Positions 47,442 through 58,829 of a stretch of 64,000 nucleotides of DNA are shown here, one piece after another (the stretch's first letter is position 1; each line of letters opens with the position of its first letter). The stretch covers positions 5,949,613 to 6,013,612 of the forward strand of contig CM018603.1 in the NCBI GenBank assembly GCA_009192285.1, written 5' to 3'. This stretch comes from Morchella semilibera. Lineage: Eukaryota > Ascomycota > Pezizomycetes > Pezizales > Morchellaceae. The notes beneath the pieces are model-generated. The model was not told where the DNA came from. It did no database searches and was given only the letters and a program-made list of their open reading frames with translations. The translations under genes were made by a program, and so were the position numbers.

Positions 47442-49624
47442 AAGGTCTTCTATGACGGTTCTTATAGCGTAACATCCGGAGCAGAGGAATTCATTATATA
47501 ACAAGACTTATATATCGAGTACGGATTTATTCTGAACTCGTAACTCTCGAAGGCAGAAAATGGATGAGATAATAAATCATCTTGAGCGGCTATCTATGAT
47601 AAATATTCTGTAACAGAGATAATTATTTGGAGTATCGAATAGACTGGAGCGATATTCTTTGACATATCCGCTGTTTTAGCTCGCGCCGGCGCTAGATTGA
47701 CTTTGTTTCGCCCCCTAAATGTACATACACAATTCTACTCTGAATAGCGTTTGCTCGTTACTGTCCATCTGTAATCATGAATTCAATAGTAAATAAATTA
47801 GATAAATTAAAATATTCATGTGCGTATAATAGAGCATCCTATATATGTTTCTTTCCGCATATTCCAAGGGACGTAATCCGTCGTTTCATTTGTATATGTA
47901 CATGCATAGCTCGATGCCAAAAGCCGCGGGACAAAACACCCCAAAATATGGACTTTTTGCAACACTCTCCAGGAACCACCACCAATCGATAGACCTTGGG
48001 ATTTACGATATAGACTCAGAAAGCCTCAAAGTACCCCCTGTAAACATATCTTGCATCAATTTTCAACTGTTGGTGGTGTAGCAAGCTCCAGCTCCCATCA
48101 AGACCCATACAAACCACAAAAATGATTATCACCCATGAAACATAATTTCGTTTTAGGCTTGCGCTCTGATCTGGACTCCCCTAATGATTCGGTAGACTCC
48201 GACAAATCTCCATTCACTAAAATGCGTTGTTGTGGTCTGGATAGGTTTTTAAAAGTGTCCATTGTTTGAGTGTGGTTTGGGCTGTTGTCCCAGGACTTTT
48301 GAACAAGAACTATAGACTCGCTCACGGGTATGTGGTGACCACGGGTACGTGGGGATCTTTCTGTCTCAACATGGTGAGTACCAAAATCAATTTGCAAAAA
48401 TTCATAATTCAAGACCATGAACTACCCAAACCTCATACGCTATCTCGCATTTACTTGTTTTTATAAGTTTAGCTGTCCTGTGGAAGGAAAAAAAGTAAAA
48501 ATTCCCACGCACCCGTGATCGCCACATACCCGTGAGCGACTCTACCTCGAGGGTCCTCAAATTGATTGCAACGGCGACAAAGAACCGCAATTTCGCAGCT
48601 ACTGGCCACCATGTCCAAAAGTTGAAATACATGTAACTTATATAGATCTAATTTGCATCAGTACGTGAGGACAGAAATGGAAAAAGTTACTTAACTGAGT
48701 CTAGCTTTGATACATGTAGTAGTCGCGACACCAAAGTATTGAGCTCGTTGCATCTCTTTAAGGACCCCCCGGGGTACTAATATCGAGCTCACAACGCGAT
48801 TCTCTGGTTTATATAACTACATGTAAGTTTATAATCAGAAGTGATTTCAATATGCTGGCTCATAGGCCAGTTTCCTTGTATAATTTAGCTGCGTGCATTA
48901 GAGTAAATTAAAGTAGCCTATATATAATTGGGAACCAATTATGAGCTAGTTGATTCCCAAAGGGAACCCTGAAACCGAATCCCGTCAGAAGGGGGGGGGG
49001 GTTTATTATAGCAGTCTCGAGGTGGTGGGACAAGGGGTCCGCTTCATCAAATATCACTCAGCTCATTAACACTTTGAGTCGTACGCGTGAGTTTATTCGA
49101 TTTATTTATTCATCAAACACATGCACCTATATTTCGAATCATGAAAGATCAAGCATATCATTTGATCTGTGGTATAATAAAAAATATACCAACGATCTAA
49201 ATCAAAAGGGTCGTTCAGGGTTTAGTACTGTACTATAACTTCCCAAGGCCGTTGTAGAAGTGTAGATAAAGACCTACATTATATATACAAAGCCAATTGA
49301 GTTAAGTACACCATTATATGTTTTGTTGGTATATGTACATGTTGTACTTATATGTATACATGGATGTATTACCGCGTTACCATTCACTTACTGATACATG
49401 TAAGTTCTGCTTGTAGGGGATGGCCACGAGGCAAGTACGACGGGATCGATACCTGTAATGTATACATATACATGCAGTTTTTCGGCGAGGTGTCTTGAGC
49501 TACAGTACCAAAAAAGGGGATGTTCTCGGTACGGTAGCCAGATTTTATTTTGTAGAATACGGTAGAACTATGGGTTTCCACAGAAGGCGGTTGTTTGAAT
49601 AATATGTATTATTAAGACTGCCGT
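47442..49624. other. Intergenic spacer
   Basis: No gene supported; short frames at 47777-48081 and 48098-48418 show no family resemblance. It holds the inverted repeat at 48309-48543 and TACATGTA palindromes. Confidence 0.45.
48309..48543. repeat. Inverted repeat of about 235 bp
   Basis: Left arm GACTCGCTCACGGGTATG, TGGTGACCACGGGTACGTGG is matched in inverted orientation by CCCACGCACCCGTGATCGCC, ACATACCCGTGAGCGACTC. Spacer of about 150 bp without a gene. Unrelated in sequence to the other repeats. Confidence 0.65.
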
Positions 49625-50435
49625 CTTGTATTTAGTAGTGTAGCACGACACTCTTATCGGTTAGCGGCATTTGTGGCTGAATGCCGCGTTTAGCCAAGAC
49701 CATACCAATCCCAAACCGTTACCGCATTAGCCCCCGCACTTTAGCGCGACTGTAGGGATGCTGAATGCTCAAGAATGCTATAGCGCTGCGGTCTGCTAAC
49801 TAATACGGTATGTGAGACACGACCGAACTCCCAACAATCTAGCAGGACTGCCGCATTCTATTGAACACCGCCTGCTGATTGGTGTCATAGTGCTACCGGA
49901 TTTCACTGAATACTGTATCACTGCCGCATTTCCTCTAAACCCGGTATGGCATTTTTAATATTTTTTTTTCGTTAATAAACCTCGCGTTATTATATGTAAT
50001 CTCGTGTATACATGTAATTGTAATGTACATATAGCACCGGGTATTCTTGTATAAAAAATAAGTACATGCAATCTACATACATGTAATTCTAAATGATATG
50101 TTCTCCTAACCCCCGCCCCATATACATGTGGACCTCCAAACTCCTAATACAATGCACCGTTCGCACCCGAATAAAACATGTATGTGAAAGAACAAAAATG
50201 TATGTAACGCAATGAGATATACATGTAAACGTGCAGTATATACACTGGCACTATCAAAAGGATATAGATAAGAGAATCTCAAAAAAAAATATATAAAAAA
50301 AAATATAACACAGAATTGATTGAAAAAAAAAAAGAATTGGTTGATAAATGAGGGAAACAAAACGGGGAAGAAAATATAATACAGAATAGATAAAATAAAG
50401 CAGCGCAGAAAGAGGTGGGGGGGGGGGTTAAAAAA

Positions 50436-51958
50436 TTATACACACCCGGCAGCGTTGAGCTCACTATCGCCATCAGTGTCATCTGACATCGGGATAGCGG
50501 AGCTTGGGCTTGCACCTCGTTGTGTCAGACCGGCATTTGGAGTGGTGACGACGGGGCGAGCAGATGAGGGTGCGCTGCTAGATGGAGCGGCTTCTTCCAC
50601 ATCTGCGCTGATGAACGGCACGAAGAGGTCGTCCTTTTCTAGGTTCCTCTTCCTTGACTTACGATAGCGTACCTTACTCGGCGGCTTTGGCGGCAGTAAA
50701 ACCAAAAGCTCAACCCCGTATGCCTTAAACTCCTCTTTAAGCCCGATAGCCCTCACACGGTCCATGGCTTCACTCCTGGGGAATGCTCCCGGATCGTTGC
50801 GAGCCTTGTGTGAGTAAATTAAGCTATATATGAACAGAGTCTTATACAGAGCCAGCATATTTGGGTTGCGAAGAGTCTCTCCCCAATCTATCACTGCGCG
50901 TGTAGTGCCGAGGAGGCTGTAGAAGTCCGCAAAATTCCATTTCGTCTCGTATGCCTGTCGGAGATCTCTCTCCGCCAGGGTTGCATAACCCATATTGTCG
51001 CTTTGGATCCGTCGTTGCAGGGCGTCGATATCTATAAAATAGTCGCTAAACCAATTCTTCCTCCAAGAAAGTATCCGATTGTACGCCTTCAGATACCCGT
51101 TTGAGGCAATATCCACTCGTCTGCCAGCTGCGTCGTTAATCATTCGTGGAATCCATTCATCAAGAATGCAGAAGTAGCGAGCAAAAATAAGGCGAGCTTT
51201 GCTGATCAGGTTGTTGAAAAGTTGGCCACCGTCCTTAAATTCGTCGTCGAGTCGACGGTTATCGTAGCGCCGCTTGGAATTCGATTTCTCATATATCGCT
51301 TTATCTATGGCACTCTGAACCTCTTGGAGTTCCAATCCCTCCGGGGCCTTTGATTCATGTGTATTAGTATACGAGTATGTCGAGTGTCCAAACGCACGCA
51401 TGTACATGTAGTTTTCCTTACCCGGATCACATAATCCGCTTCCACGTTCTCTTCGGCTTCATATGTGAGGCCCAGGTTATAGCCATCAGCGGGATCCTCT
51501 TCCGTGATATCTTCATCGATTACTATCTGGGACTCTTGGGACTCTTCGATATCGGAGCGTTGACGCCGTGGAGTGGGCGTGGGTGGGTGTCTTTGTGTCC
51601 CGAATTGTTGGGCAAGAGCGCCAAATTGCATCTGCATTTGGCCATTGGGCAATTGCTGCTGCGGCTGCGGCTGCTGCTGCTGCGGCTGCTGTTGCTGCGG
51701 GGTGCCAAAAGTCATAGTGGCATATTGCGACTGTTGCGACAGCACAGGCACCTGCGACTGTTGCGGCTGTTGTGATTGTGAATGGAAATCATGACCAAGC
51801 GTACTGATGGAGGTCTGCGAGTCATCGTTAGGGGGGGGGAAGAGTAAACGTCGTGGAGTAGGCGTTGGAGGACTAACGGGAGTGTTTCTTAGTCCACTGG
51901 AGTTACTTCTGGCGACACGCCCAATGTTCCGTGCAGGTGTTCTAATTGGCCCTACCAT
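50436..51958 (-). CDS. Unrecognised protein in candidate transposon, polyQ N-terminus
   Basis: Two exons, 51958-51422 and 51347-50436, with a 74-nt intron that has a TACTAATAC branch-point-like site, give about 482 aa. The N-terminal 140 residues are low complexity: repeated TPTPRR and TPARN motifs, then long Gln-rich runs. After an acidic segment (SDIEESQESQIVIDEDITEE) a globular, mainly helical region follows, with RLIFARYFCILDEWIPRM, DIDALQRRIQSDNMGYATL, KWNFADFYSLLGTTRAV and LALYKTLFIYSLIYSHKARN, then a basic KVRYRKSRKRNLEKDD patch and a Ser/Pro-rich end. I recognise no domain. Its position, divergent from the transposase and next to another unknown gene, suggests an accessory role such as DNA binding at the subterminal repeats; this is inference. 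Confidence 0.6.
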
Positions 51959-52443
51959 TTTTAGAGCTGTATAAAAGCTGTATAAAGTGAGTACGTCAGT
52001 GTGGTGTTAGAGATGCGTGTGAATTAGCACGGCGCTGTATAGAGTCTGTCTGGGTATGGTGTTGATGTTGAGGTAGATGGTGTGCAAAGCGGAGAAAAAA
52101 AAGAGGAGGCTGGGTGGGTTAGGGTTTTTGATTCGTTTACTTACGTTGTGTATCCACAGCAACGCCCACGTTAGCAAGGGTTCTCGCTTAGCAGGGCTCT
52201 TATTAGACCCTTTAACCCGAATAGGACTCGCTAACCTAAATAAGCCAGTATATTGGATTGATAATACAGTTGCTGTAATAATAGATGCAACACTCAAACG
52301 GATGTAGAAACTTTGTGGACTTCAACAACGCGACATGTATTTTGAAACTTTAGTAACTCCAACAACGCTTTACATGTATTTTGATGAATTTCTAGATTGA
52401 TACATGAGACGTTGCTGTATTGTTTTCATATTGTCTATCCATC

Positions 52444-52908
52444 CTAAACCATGTATGATGGCAAAACCTCCCAGTAGACAAGTGCCCTGTAGCAATGTTC
52501 CCCGTTCCAAACGAATAGCTTAGGTTTTCCACGAACAGTGGCCTCGATTTCGTGGCCAAGTTCGATGAGCTTGATGAAGAGTTCGCATTCGTGACGCCTG
52601 ACCCATCCTCCGTGAGACTGTTTGCCCTCTTTATGACAACGCAATTCGGCCCCGTAGACAGGATTTTCCGCAGTTGAATGAGTCGCTAGAGATTTGTAGA
52701 CTCTGTACTTCATGTTGCGCTTAGGACGAGAAGGATTGATTGTCTTGACGTCGCCCGCGATATCTGTAGTACTGTTAGATGATATCAGCAGAGGGGGGAG
52801 AGTCAAGGTGTTATTACAAACGATATGGGCCATCCCGAAGAGATCGCATTTCTCGTCTTTTATCTCGTCTTTTATATTGGTAATGGGGTCAGAGGAATCT
52901 GAAGACAT
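52444..52908 (-). CDS. Unrecognised 154-aa protein in candidate transposon
   Basis: A single uninterrupted frame from an ATG with no intron. The first 45 residues are polar and acidic (SSDSSDPITNIKDEIKDEK). The rest looks like one compact domain: RPKRNMKYRVYKSLATHS, YGAELRCHKEGKQSHGGWVR, RHECELFIKLIELGHEIEAT, KPKLFVWNGEHCYRALVYW. Conserved-looking Cys, His and Trp residues are present but do not form an obvious zinc finger. Between it and its minus-strand neighbour are about 480 bp, between it and the plus-strand gene about 320 bp, so the region around 53000 may be a shared promoter. Function unknown. Confidence 0.5.
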   Translation of the reverse strand: MSSDSSDPITNIKDEIKDEKCDLFGMAHIVCNNTLTLPPLLISSNSTTDIAGDVKTINPSRPKRNMKYRVYKSLATHSTAENPVYGAELRCHKEGKQSHGGWVRRHECELFIKLIELGHEIEATVRGKPKLFVWNGEHCYRALVYWEVLPSYMV

Positions 52909-53228
52909 GATGAGTATTGTGAGGATGAGGATGGATGGTAGTGGTAATGGTAGTGGTAATAGTGGTAATGGCTAGGGGACGGCATGAATTAATGATTTAA
53001 GCAAAAAATAAAATAAAAGAATGACTGGGGGGCTTAAAAACTGCGATATCGAGTGCGCGGTGGTGATGGAAGCTAGAGTACATGTAACTTCGCTACATGT
53101 TTGCACGGCCGCGAATCCCTGTAATTCCTTAGCCCTACCGCGCGATACCCTTTCGCGTGTGGTATCCTTGCATCTACATCATACATGTACCCTTCCATCA
53201 TTTGCACGCACCACGATATCCTGAAAAG

Positions 53229-56200
53229 ATGAGACGCCGAGGATTCAATGAAGATCTCCCGAGTGCACGTATTGAGCGTCCATGTAAGTTATAATCCTAT
53301 TTTTCACGTTAGCTTATCGGTTAATAATAGTACCGCCATCAGTACCCCCTCGACTTGGTGGACCTTCCACTACTCGCCGCATAATAAGGCACTCGGGTAC
53401 TCCGGCAGCCAGGGCCACGAGGCACTTAGCACCGGCCCAGCCGATAGAGATATTCGAGGATGATGATCAAGTACAGGAGGCTGTGTCAATTGCAAATGAG
53501 GACGATATTGAGCCACCAGAGTCGATACTCCAGCCATCTTCATCAGTCAATATTTTAGGTGTCAATTATGGAGAGGATTTAGACATACCGGAGGAGATCG
53601 GCGACGAAGAAAATCACGCTACTATTGGTAATCCGGAACTGGGAAAGAAGCAAGAGGCTCAAGGGGTGGGGGGGGCGGGGTTGGAAGATGCGTCGGTCGA
53701 TGTTGATATAGTAGATGGAGCTATGGGGCCAATCCTTAACATCTCATCTGCGGCGGCAGCGGTGGATCTGTCGACACCACAGTGCCTATCACCAGATCTG
53801 GGGCTATCAACGCAGAAGGTTCCACCAGAGGACCCAGCAGCGCTGGATCAACCACAAGAGGTGAAAGAGGCAACTGTAATTGAGCGAATAGCAGATGGCC
53901 CATGTCCATCAAATAGAACGGTTGATGATTTCCATCTCGCTATGATGTTATTCGTCACGGCCTCAGATTTATCGACGTCTCAGTATCAAGCGTTAACGGA
54001 AGTCTTGGCGTTAGCAACCCCGGGGGGAATTTCTTCATTGCCGCGTAGTATCAAGACCCTCAAAGAAAACTGCAGAAAATCTTTCCCGTTGTCCCAGATT
54101 AAGGCCCGTCCAGTTCATATATCTTCTAACGCGACCCCCCCGAAAACAGAGACACCAAAATCTGCATACTACTTCGAAACTGCAGAATATTCTCGCTTAT
54201 GGCTCAACAACCCAAAATTAGATTTGCATCTAGGCATGGGTATCATCGTCGACAATCCTACAGAGTTGTGGCATGGAGATGCTTGGCTAGAGAGCGTACG
54301 AACAACCTCCGGAGAGTTTGCGCGGGTTGGGAACGAAATATTATTACCTTCCGACTGTATAACGTTTAAGGATTATGCTGGAAATATCGCGTTTGGGAGA
54401 GTCAAGGGAGTTGGCATCGATAGGAGAGGCTCAGTGACGGCGTCCGGATCGAATACATCCATGTATGCTGCCATCGTTAACCGCTTGCTTCCCGTGGCTC
54501 AGCTACCACAGTACGTCAGCCACCTGGGCCGGGATGTACCAGGTAGTCACAGTTACCCTCTTAACCCTTCTGAGCTCCCAGAGCTCATTCTTTTCGACAC
54601 TCGAGATATCATTCGTTGTTCGGATATAATTTCGAAAGAATGGGTATACTTCACTGATTATGATTCAGTTGAAATGCTGTCGGCGAGTCTGCTGCCGCAA
54701 CCGCCTCGATTTTGTGTGCGCCGAGTTATATATCAAAGCAGCACCGGCGTTTTATGTACAAGGTCCATACACCAGCGGCACCGGGTGGTTGCCGAGTCTG
54801 AACTGACTACATTAACCCGCGACTACGTCTTATCCAATCTTGTGAATGGTGGGCAACCTACATTTGTATCAGAGTCGACAACAAGCGGAACTCGACGCGT
54901 ATCACTCCCATATTCCGTCTTTTTGGATGGTTTTGGCCTCTACCGCAATGCTTATCACAGTCTGAAAGGCATGTACATAACCCCTGCGGGGTTGGACGTG
55001 AATAGCCGTACCCAACTCAGTAATATGTTTGTTCTTATGATAGGTCCATTCGGGAGTAGTGAAAAAGGGATGGCGGATTGTCTGTCAGAAGATAGTAATA
55101 GGGTCGGTAAAGGGTTTCTGTTGCAATTGGAGTCTGGAGAAGAGGTTATTGCTACTACATTCCCGATCATGTTCGTCGGGGATATGCCACAGCAGAACCA
55201 GAACTCTGGTAACAAGACCCACAACGCGCAGTTTGGCTGCCGATACTGTTTCATTCCCGACCTTCAACGCGGCAACCTCCAGTTTGATTTCGTCGCTGGG
55301 GGTAGGTACAGGGCGCCGGTCAAGAGACTATACGAAGGTGCAATGAGGCTGGCATCCAAGGCCGCGAGGATGGGTACTTTGCAGGAGTGAGTACTATATT
55401 GAGTGCTATGGAAAACACGGCGGCTAACGATGTGCATGGAATTGCAGGTACGGACTTACCGCTGATGGGCCATACTTTGCGAAATGCTACCCTATGTTAG
55501 ATCCACAACGGTCAAATCCAAATGACCCAATGCATGCAGAATTACGCCTCAGTAAATATTTCGCTGAAACGCTTGTTGATGGGATATTGTCACCGTCAGG
55601 TATGAGATTATACTCCTATCATACGTTGATGTACTCGAGGAACAGTTTTTGACGATACATGTAGGTATACTTGCGTATCGCGCGGCGTGGGAGGACGTCG
55701 AAGTACCATATGGTTGGGGTCAACCACAGAACCCCGTGAATCACAAAGGGTCCATGGTGTTCAGCGAGCATGGCGAGATGGCGATAATGAATCCCTTCAT
55801 TTTGCTACACCTTTTTACGAACGACGAATCAAAGCATATAGAGGACAACCCGCGGCGAGCAGAGAATAAATCATACCTAAAACTGGGTGTTGAAGCCAAG
55901 ATGGTTCAGATGTTTGGTTCAGTCAGTGCCGCAAGGATGCATATCATTAGGACAGCATTCTTAATGGCCAAAACAGTGGATTTGACAATGAAAAGAACAC
56001 TGAGCCCAACAGAACGGAAGGAATTTCATTCGACCGTTATAGAAGATCGGATTCTACTACGAAAATTCTTTCTATCTATGGGCGGTAGTAAAGGGAGCTA
56101 TCAAAAATACGCTGATGTTCCGAACGTTCACCTGGGTCTACACTATGCGCAAGATGTAGAGAATTATGCGACGACTTATAATGCTGGAACCATGTTAGGC

Positions 56201-56974
56201 GAGCAGAAACACAAAGTATTCAAACAACACGCAGCACATACCAATTCTAAAGACAGTGATTTCCAGCTCCTGAAAGCGATCAACACGACCCAGACCATTA
56301 GGTTTCTTCTTGATGGCACATACACTCAATCCGCCCCCGATATCAGCAGACAAATCCGAATTGTTGTGGATCGGTGCCCGATCTTGAAGGCTAGGTTTCT
56401 TGGTAGAGCATCGGCCGAAGCAGAGCAAGGCGACACGACTGGAGGTGTTGATACATCCGGAAGCCTTCTAAAATTTGCCAAGACCGGCCGCCCACTAACC
56501 CTGAAGGCTATTGGAGGGGGGAATTGCGATTCAGACCTTCAATTGTTGACAGCCCACTACAAAAATGTTTTACGTATCACGCTCGTGAGGAACATGAAAT
56601 ACAAGATTCATTATTGGGGCTATATGAGTGGCAAGACCCGTGTAAGGTCAGTTTATGAGGGCCACCACATGTACAGATTATCCGCCCCTGGTGGTTTCGT
56701 GAGATTGCGAGGAGATCCCCCTTTGACTTTCTACTGGGTTCACCGCATACTGACTCTGACTATGGGGACAAACGTTTCGGTGTTTCTTATCCTAGAGGTA
56801 TTGCAAAGGGATACAGCAGGGGCGGAAGTGGCCGCCGCGCCTTACCCGGTCTACAAGAAAACATCGTGTGTGGTCGTTGCAAATCTTGCCAGGGTTGATC
56901 CTACAATACTTCACTTTGTAAAAAAAGGGGCTGATTCTTGGTGGTGGAATCCCTTTGTTCCTCAGTTCATGTAA
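53229..56974 (+). CDS. Putative Tnp2-like transposase
   Basis: Four exons, 53229-53283, 53331-55386, 55448-55599 and 55665-56974, give about 1190 aa. The N-terminal 150 residues are acidic and disordered after a basic Arg-rich start (MRRRGFNEDLPSARIERP). The middle has VSLPYSVFLDGFGLYRNAYH, GDMPQQNQNSGNKTHNAQFG with a CRYC pair, PDLQRGNLQFD, and after the second splice EYGLTADGPYFAK, DPQRSNPNDPMHAELRLSK and GWGQPQNPVNHKGSM. The order (D-x-F-G, CxxC, a D-x-MH-x-E box, then an RNase-H-like remainder) resembles fungal transposase proteins related to Tnp2 (PF02992) of CACTA elements. The end is unusual: RVDPTILHFVKKGADSWWWN. Start chosen because exon 1 joins in phase; a GTG-started longer frame was rejected. 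The frame is fully open. Confidence 0.62.
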
Positions 56975-57279
56975 TGGTCATTTCGCCACTATTTTTTCTT
57001 TCTTTCACTTTTTTTTTTTTGTGTGTGATAAGGGCTTGGGGGCGCCAGCCCTAACCGCACTATGGGAGACTCGTACTGTCTTTATCTTTCCCTTTCTCGC
57101 ACCCTCTCCCCTTTCTTTCTCATCAACCAATCATCATCTCTTCTACCAATACAGTTTTTTTCACGCGATAATACGTGCACCACCATCACGGATACATGTA
57201 CATGATTTATTTTCGTGATATAAGGTAAAGACTACCGTACATGCTTCATGCTAATCCATTTACCGTTTATCAACAGATC

Positions 57280-57650
57280 ATCTCCGAAAACACTATCAGG
57301 GCTTCTTTTATGCATCAACCAATCACGGTAATCAAACATCCCTCTCGCGTCTGTTACTGATCATCTGAAAATACTGCCAGCGTTTCTTTTTACGCGTCGC
57401 TAGATCATCACGGTAATGAACACATTTCCTTCTCGTTTGTTGCTGATGACTGATAATAACTTATAGTAGTGTTTCTTTCACGCGTCGCCATATCAGAGTG
57501 TATGTTATCATTGCGGTAATGAACTCATTTCCTTCTGCTTTGTTGCTGATGACCGTGATAATAACTTACATGTAGTGTTTCTTTTACGCGGCGCTAAATC
57601 AATCATAACGGTAATGAAAACATTCCCTTCTCGCGTCCGTTGCTGATGAT
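57280..57650. repeat. Degenerate minisatellite, about four units of 90 bp
   Basis: Each unit contains TTTCTTTTACGCGTCGCT-like sequence, ATCA..CGGTAATGAA.ACAT, CCCTTCTCG and GTTGCTGATGA. Units are about 85-100 bp and diverged. They lie just downstream of the transposase stop, within the candidate element. Confidence 0.65.
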
Positions 57651-57882
57651 TATAATGCACAGATATCACAGATACATGTATACAGATTCGCAGCTGTGGT
57701 AAGTAACAGGTGAGCCTAAATGTCGTGTTTCCCTTTGTTTTTGTCATTGACTCATCGCAGTGAGCGAAGATTTGTATATATTGGATTTCGGTATAGATAC
57801 ATGTACATGTACGTGTAGATAATGTATGATCAAATAAAATATGACTTGAGATTCGTAACATGACAGAATAGTATCTTGACTT

Positions 57883-57946
57883 GAAATACGAATGCCGTGA
57901 AATACGAATGCCGTGAAATACGAATGCCGTGAAATACGAATGCCAT
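57883..57946. repeat. Perfect 16-bp tandem repeat, four copies
   Basis: GAAATACGAATGCCGT is repeated four times without spacing; the fourth copy changes at its last bases (GCCATA). The unit contains GAATGCCG, a variant of the motif enriched in both flanks of the candidate transposon. Confidence 0.85.
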
Positions 57947-58829
57947 AAAATATAGTAACACTACAGCATTTCTATGCCATACGGTAGGGATATTCGATTG
58001 TGGTGCAGATAATCTCGAGAGAAATGCGGTAGTAGCATGGCATTCAAACCATAGTCTAGAGAATGGGCATCATACACCATACCGTTCCAATGTCATAGTG
58101 ATTCGGCACTTTATGGCAAATAGTCTCCGAAAGATTACAGTAATACTATAGTGGGTGGAGGGTCTTTGTTAGGAAGGGGCACGAAAGAGAATTCCGTAAT
58201 AGTACAGTCGTAGAACCATATTTATCAGAAGATAGTCTCCAAAAAGTTACCGCACTGCTATAGGAGCCGGAGAGCCTCGGTTGGCAATGCGCATGGGCCA
58301 GAAGCGAGTAGGACTACGGTCGGACAACCGCATTCTTCGCCATATTTCCTGATTGAGAATGCGGCACTAACGCTACAGTACTACTAGCGTGGAAGCAATG
58401 CCGCTCCACCCTAAGACTTGCTCACTACGGTCGCACTTCCCTATTGTCAACAAGCGAGCATTGCTAATAAGCGGAATTGTTTTAGAAATACGTATTGTCT
58501 CCAACACATTAATCTCAACAATATCGACCTATATCGGCATTGTTCAGAATGACACATTCTTCAGAAGATAGTCGCCCTACTATAGTACTACTATACCAGG
58601 AACACCCCTATTTTTGTTGCTGTACATGTAGTACCCCTCGTTGTATTGATGTATTCTCTTAGGCCACCTTCCCTACTTCGTTTCTTCCCTTTATTTAATC
58701 TCACTTATTCCATCCCCATCATTCTTTCTTAAAAACACCAGCAGGGAAGCCTCCACTCAACTCTGAACCCCATCTATCCGTTCGAGTTCTACTTCAAGGC
58801 TAAAACAATACATTTCTTACCTGCTTAAT

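Follow-up and report, generated by a model that had tools for sequence, protein, structure and literature searches.

A probable TA-inserting CMCT-clade transposon carrying two accessory genes in Morchella semilibera

The 64,000-nucleotide stretch of Morchella semilibera DNA that we analyzed (contig CM018603.1, positions 5,949,613 to 6,013,612, hereafter the window) contains a compact three-gene block of about 9 kb, in which a transposase-like gene, T, is accompanied by two genes on the opposite strand, A and B (Table 1). The exons of T and A were called from splice signals, and all three frames are open in the window copy. Searches of the genome from which the window was taken—56.8 Mb in 23 contigs, denoted here by C and a number, with the window on C1—revealed that the block is a repeated unit. 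This bears out the original prediction, an earlier reading of the window that had proposed a compact unit of three genes with intact frames between positions 49625 and 58580, although the borders are slightly wider. The element spans positions 49503-58622, i.e., 9,120 bp, with a TA at both sides, and these borders were fixed by comparison with a second copy on contig C21. We conclude that it is a mobile, recently moved transposon carrying its own transposase and two helper genes, and it is very probably an autonomous cut-and-paste DNA transposon of the CMCT (CACTA/EnSpm-Mirage-Chapaev-Transib) clade, of the kind that inserts into TA.

Table 1. Features of the three-gene element, in window positions
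Feature	Position	Strand	Basis or remark
Left TA target dinucleotide (inferred target-site duplication)	49501..49502	no strand	TA outside both ends in 7/7 elements
Left terminal inverted repeat, imperfect, ~35 bp, begins CAGTACC	49503..49537	+	inverted match to 58588-58622
Left subterminal repeat zone (RCCGYATT / TACSGTA)	49530..49930	no strand	motif counts; k-mer enrichment over five families
Gene A, 482 aa, two exons	50436..51958	-	intron 51348-51421
Gene B, 154 aa, single exon	52444..52908	-	homologues near T and Transposase_21 loci
Gene T, transposase, 1190 aa, four exons	53229..56974	+	introns 53284-53330, 55387-55447, 55600-55664
Putative catalytic residues of T: D551, D636, E934	D551, codon 54926-54928; E934, codon 56201-56203	+	alignment
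16-bp tandem repeat, 4.4 copies	57882..57952	no strand	right non-coding region of element
Right subterminal repeat zone	57980..58365	no strand	motif counts
Right terminal inverted repeat	58588..58622	-	inverted match to left end
Right TA target dinucleotide	58623..58624	no strand	TA outside both ends in 7/7 elements

The first line of evidence is the second copy. When the window was compared with 30 kb of contig C21 at an E value of 1e-10, there was a single match, between window positions 49498-58624 and C21:2089426-2098545, which shows 99.84% identity over 9,129 aligned positions. The similarity extends as far as the inverted end on each side, beyond which the flanks are unrelated; the two copies differ by four substitutions and 11 single-base length differences in homopolymer runs. 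The sequence to the left of the window copy is single-copy, and each end region was found only in the window and on C21, from which it follows that the family has two near-identical copies. This pattern is consistent with recent movement and lends support to the prediction that the unit may be young or recently active. In the searches, which covered this genome, no conserved single-copy position, which had been named as an outcome that would speak against a transposon, was seen, and paralogous copies, which had been proposed as a check, were found in the form of the C21 copy and a series of diverged relatives. Copies with stop codons also occur elsewhere in the genome.

The second line of evidence is the co-occurrence of the three genes, another proposed check. 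Counting scored matches only, which makes all locus counts for A, B and T lower bounds, A accompanies T within 13 kb at 15 of 21 T loci and is joined by B at 14 of these, the remaining six loci having neither; the opposite outcome, three genes that never occur together elsewhere, was not seen. Apparent allelic contig pairs (C9/C10, C21/C22 and C1 with C23) inflate the counts. As a separate observation, the two contigs in each of the pairs C9/C10, C21/C22 and C12/C13 show the same matches shifted by a nearly constant offset, which would fit a partial assembly of two haplotypes or nuclei.

The third line of evidence comes from the ends, which we checked in ten elements with fetched flanks: the window copy, the C21 copy and eight diverged relatives. 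A partly fetched copy on C10, an apparent allele of a C9 copy, was excluded from this search and from the alignments. Paired inverted ends of the form CA..TG are present in seven of the ten (window, C21, C1:4.65 Mb, C5:0.52 Mb, C9:1.71 Mb, C9:0.91 Mb and C23:2.38 Mb), so the terminal inverted repeats that the original prediction had suggested looking for do exist, as imperfect ends of about 35 bp. Similar ends are found across six families, with a consensus that is roughly TA|CA(G/A)TACC(A/G)(A/G)AAA..GGGG, with variants. TA lies on both sides in all seven elements with two ends, and the lengths of these elements, excluding TA, are 8.8-10.8 kb. A pattern derived from the ends has 12 matches in the genome, while the same pattern read backward, used as a control, has none. 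Around the decayed relative on C20, there is an inverted repeat of ~636 bp, 81% identical between its two arms (C20:2889468-2890103 and C20:2898252-2898884), which is possibly another element; it was rejected as the ends of that relative because its start lacks the end sequence of the family.

The transposase itself fits this picture. In an alignment of T with eight relatives, which were stitched from translated matches, D551, D636, C655-x2-C658, H910-x3-H914 and E934 are invariant in nine of nine members. T has no Pfam hit at E values up to 10. Among five relatives scanned, one matches Plavaka at an E value of 0.0035 and 17 bits, below the cut-off of 26.3, and four have no match to that family; DUF1177 and DUF4905 matches of two relatives were discarded, being below the Pfam cut-off. 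When a profile of T was aligned to Plavaka proteins of the same genome, the two aspartates and the C-x2-C motif co-align at a relaxed setting (E 0.025), the stretch with H-x3-H and the glutamate aligns in a separate comparison (E 0.049), and the region of the first aspartate aligns with one Transposase_21 protein (E 0.052). At the level of loci, none of at least 128 Plavaka matches is listed at a T locus (123 of 153 candidates scored), and none of the 25 matches in the genome to Transposase_21 (PF02992), which we take to be the Tnp2 domain of CACTA, falls at one. T therefore forms a separate lineage in its own genome. The Plavaka matches and the short introns fit a fungal genome. The order of its conserved residues—D, D, C(2)C, H(3)H, E—is that given for the CMCT clade in PMC12730594; according to this paper, the RAG1 recombinase derives from Transib, another member of the clade. 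Outside the genome, searches of viral contigs with exon 4 of T or with the alignment of T gave 6 and 89 pattern matches, and a search of bacterial and archaeal genome contigs gave 40, none of which was confirmed.

The motif-dense zones that had been predicted to flank the block are real, but they are subterminal and lie inside the element rather than in its flanks. The words GCCGCATT and RCCGYATT occur 2+1 and 5+3 times, respectively, in the leftmost 500 and rightmost 800 bases of the element and are both absent from the inner 7.8 kb, and these outer counts were reached in none of 200 dinucleotide shuffles for either word. TACSGTA, which reads alike on both strands, has four outer sites and one inner site in the window copy. 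Across the outer 800 bases per end of five families, ACCGTA occurs 28 times against 2.5 expected, and related words are enriched too. There is variation between families. The exact GCCGCATT sets the window family apart, with none in these zones of four other families; RCCGYATT is enriched in the C5 element (0/200 shuffles) and the C9:1.71 Mb element (5/200); and for TACSGTA, between 0 and 5 of 200 shuffles reached the count in each of the five families.

The two accessory genes have different distributions. A, which has a Q-rich N terminus and a conserved C-terminal domain with W-R-K-N-W, matches no Pfam family above cut-off, the scores for TFIIA (19.3 bits, cut-off 36.2) and Caskin-Pro-rich (10.5 bits, cut-off 29.1) having been rejected as too low. 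Its second exon matches at least 15 loci, and all 15 are within 13 kb of T. Because every A locus found is close to T and the repeats differ from one family to the next, A is the stronger candidate for an end-binding protein, and by analogy with En/Spm it would most likely be a sequence-specific binder of the subterminal repeats.

B also has no Pfam family above cut-off, and none of the candidate resemblances was retained: THBD scores 14.8 bits (cut-off 27), a likeness to the HIRAN domain is not claimed since the Pfam scans gave no HIRAN hit, and the lone weak solved-structure match of the B profile, to glutaminyl-tRNA synthetase (E 0.81), was not taken up. With the B homologue of the C9 element as query, at least 26 loci were found at E 0.1 or better, of which 15 are within 12 kb of T and 11 are near Transposase_21, ten of these at distances of up to 2.6 kb and the other at 9.3 kb. 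These 11 matches have E values of 6e-10 to 7e-4 and 24-36% identity, and with window B as query eight of them were recovered at E 0.1 or better and three were not. Leaving out one of each apparent allelic pair gives 12 A loci, with B at 12 places near T and nine near Transposase_21. Among the ten close Transposase_21 loci, nine have B on the strand opposite to the transposase, as do 11 of the 14 T loci at which B is present. All 26 B loci fall inside neighborhoods reaching 12 kb from a T or Transposase_21 locus, and no more than 2.0% of the genome belongs to these neighborhoods, so the association is not due to chance. Proximity to Plavaka was considered and set aside, with one of the 26 B loci within 12 kb of 68 Plavaka places (of 128 matches), that one being near T as well. 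B homologues about 2-2.6 kb from Transposase_21 are at C2:4150588, C1:4147340, C1:5520807, C11:1280115, C17:421914, C17:489870, C21:859979, C21:1246080, C22:861648 and C22:1247619. The presence of B near both T and Transposase_21 indicates that two transposase lineages share an accessory protein. We tentatively propose, at somewhat less than even odds, that B is an accessory factor required by two distantly related CMCT lineages, that of the TA-inserting T and that of Transposase_21, either by common ancestry or by transfer within the genome. B would then be a conserved partner in the clade, overlooked because no Pfam family matches it.

Several results weigh against the reading of the block as a TA-inserting CMCT transposon or soften parts of it. 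For the transposase, T has no family or solved-structure hit (in a single-sequence search and with a profile of seven partial sequences), and the hhalign probability of the T profile alignments to Plavaka and Transposase_21 proteins is at most 1.9%. Some differences of the C21 copy fall in T exon 2 and in A, where they would break the frame if real, sequencing errors being the other possibility. Single-sequence structure models of A exon 2 and of B are useless (predicted local distance difference test, pLDDT, 39 and 30). For the repeats, the degenerate words were picked after viewing the data, the window-wide count of the exact GCCGCATT 8-mer (4) is unremarkable, being reached in 4 of 100 shuffles, and RCCGYATT is not enriched in the C1:4.65 Mb (56/200 shuffles) or C9:0.91 Mb (41/200) elements. 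For the ends, pairs were not found at three of the ten elements (C14, C1:3.83 Mb and C20), and the end-derived pattern, which is too strict, misses both window ends and has four of its 12 matches at examined elements or their apparent alleles and eight elsewhere. Finally, no clean empty allele was found, as the joined flanks of seven insertions (C21 and six others) returned split filled sites and one diverged site. At that site, C1:3579956-3580066, the two flanks of the C5 element occur in the absence of the element itself. It is a 72% relative of the C5 site, matching 38 of 50 bases on the left and 39 of 43 on the right, where the match starts with the final base of the right TA; it has CA for TA, with 13 extra bases to the left of this CA, and the left match ends four bases before TA. 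It thus fits a TA duplication in part. In principle, the TA might also be a portion of the ends instead of a duplication. The check for a target-site duplication that had been proposed hence gave a TA on both sides in 7/7 elements but no clean empty allele, and we regard a duplication of TA as supported but not proven.

The eight exact end-pattern matches away from the examined elements, at C1:6034, C2:1338544, C3:966120, C4:635064, C5:397290, C19:718500, C21:241584 and C22:241726, are possibly non-autonomous copies or further elements.

How does the element relate to known systems? The original prediction saw in it the logic of CACTA with different accessory genes, and much of this stands. 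As in CACTA/En-Spm, where TnpD or Tnp2 is paired with TnpA, there are a transposase and accessory genes, short inverted ends and subterminal repeats; B, however, is common to the Transposase_21 loci of the same genome, a further likeness, so the accessory genes are not all different. Three tests speak against CACTA proper: the ends are CAGTACC, CAATACC and similar, not CACTA or CAC..GTG; the dinucleotide TA takes the place of a 3-bp duplication, since TA extended by one base, on either side, agrees in two of seven elements; and T has no Transposase_21 hit, with A and B lacking any Pfam family above cut-off. Plavaka, a CMCT member according to PMC12730594, is similar in that catalytic residues co-align in the weak profile comparisons, but the window T has no PF18759 hit and the ends are not TGT or CATCA.

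Compared by published description, T best fits the TA-inserting lineages, of which two have recently been reported: ESTA (EnSpm-like, TA target sites), CACTA relatives named from rusts in 2025 (PMC12730594), and CNEST of Cryptococcus neoformans, a TA-duplicating CMC-type element without a Repbase hit described in 2026 (PMC12810828). The prediction of an undescribed large fungal transposon accordingly holds for the three-gene family, of which we found no description in a literature search that most subscription papers and Repbase lay outside, but not for TA-inserting CACTA relatives as such, which have already been published.

This reading can be narrowed in two ways. The first, to which we give an even chance, is that the element is a member of the ESTA lineage without a TET/JBP gene, whose accessory genes are not yet listed. 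ESTA elements, according to PMC12730594, are fungal, use a TA target site, have CA..TG ends in most of the clade and encode a DDE transposase with C(2)C and H(3-4)H, and the TA flanks, ends and conserved residues of our element fit that description. However, the accessible text describes ESTA on the basis of three families that carry a captured TET/JBP gene, refers to Data S1 for those lacking TET and mentions no gene resembling A or B. The second, which we consider possible but rather less probable, is that T belongs to a separate TA-inserting CMC lineage, either its own or that of CNEST. CNEST, too, has a CMC-type transposase, duplicates TA and has no Repbase relatives (PMC12810828), and the absence of a Pfam hit for T points in the same direction. 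On the other hand, the same description gives CNEST a length of ~7.2 kb, 33-bp ends starting with CACGG, as opposed to CAGTACC/CAATACC here, and a single annotated gene, the transposase; furthermore, the residues that are shared are those of the whole clade and single out no lineage. That the block is not a transposon at all but a host gene cluster or segmental duplication is very improbable: the near-identical copies found number only two, introns are present in T and A, and several neighboring genes are ordinary host genes, but copy similarity stops at inverted ends on both sides, diverged relatives share similar ends and copies with stop codons occur elsewhere. Among those neighbors, six of ten other reading frames of the window have Pfam hits at E 0.01, e.g., to photolyase, ubiquitin hydrolase, WD40 and RING proteins.

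For a TA-inserting CMCT transposon of this composition, the following mechanism can be envisaged. T would cut at the CA/TG ends and join the element into TA, duplicating it. In En/Spm, TNPD cuts and TNPA binds subterminal repeats, and both are required (PMC2613891); by analogy, a second protein may organize the ends here, with A as the preferred candidate. B, being common to two transposase lineages, is more likely to contact the transposase or host chromatin—as a general partner, regulator or anti-silencing factor—than to read the element's own repeats. The anti-silencing proteins encoded by VANDAL elements (PMC10398659) are a precedent for such a role. This version with two accessory genes, available in two near-identical copies, offers a test bed for the roles of accessory proteins in the CMCT clade, and the occurrence of B beside two transposase lineages in one genome amounts to a specific claim of a common partner.

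Two minor observations concern other relatives of T. Four more distant ones, at C2:3134468, C1:2774072, C1:2779871 and C4:2626576, show 35% identity; they have no A or B match nearby, a 552-residue frame is present at three of the four and they possibly represent another family. In the relative at C1:3823091-3835225, the transposase match is interrupted by ~6.3 kb of other sequence.

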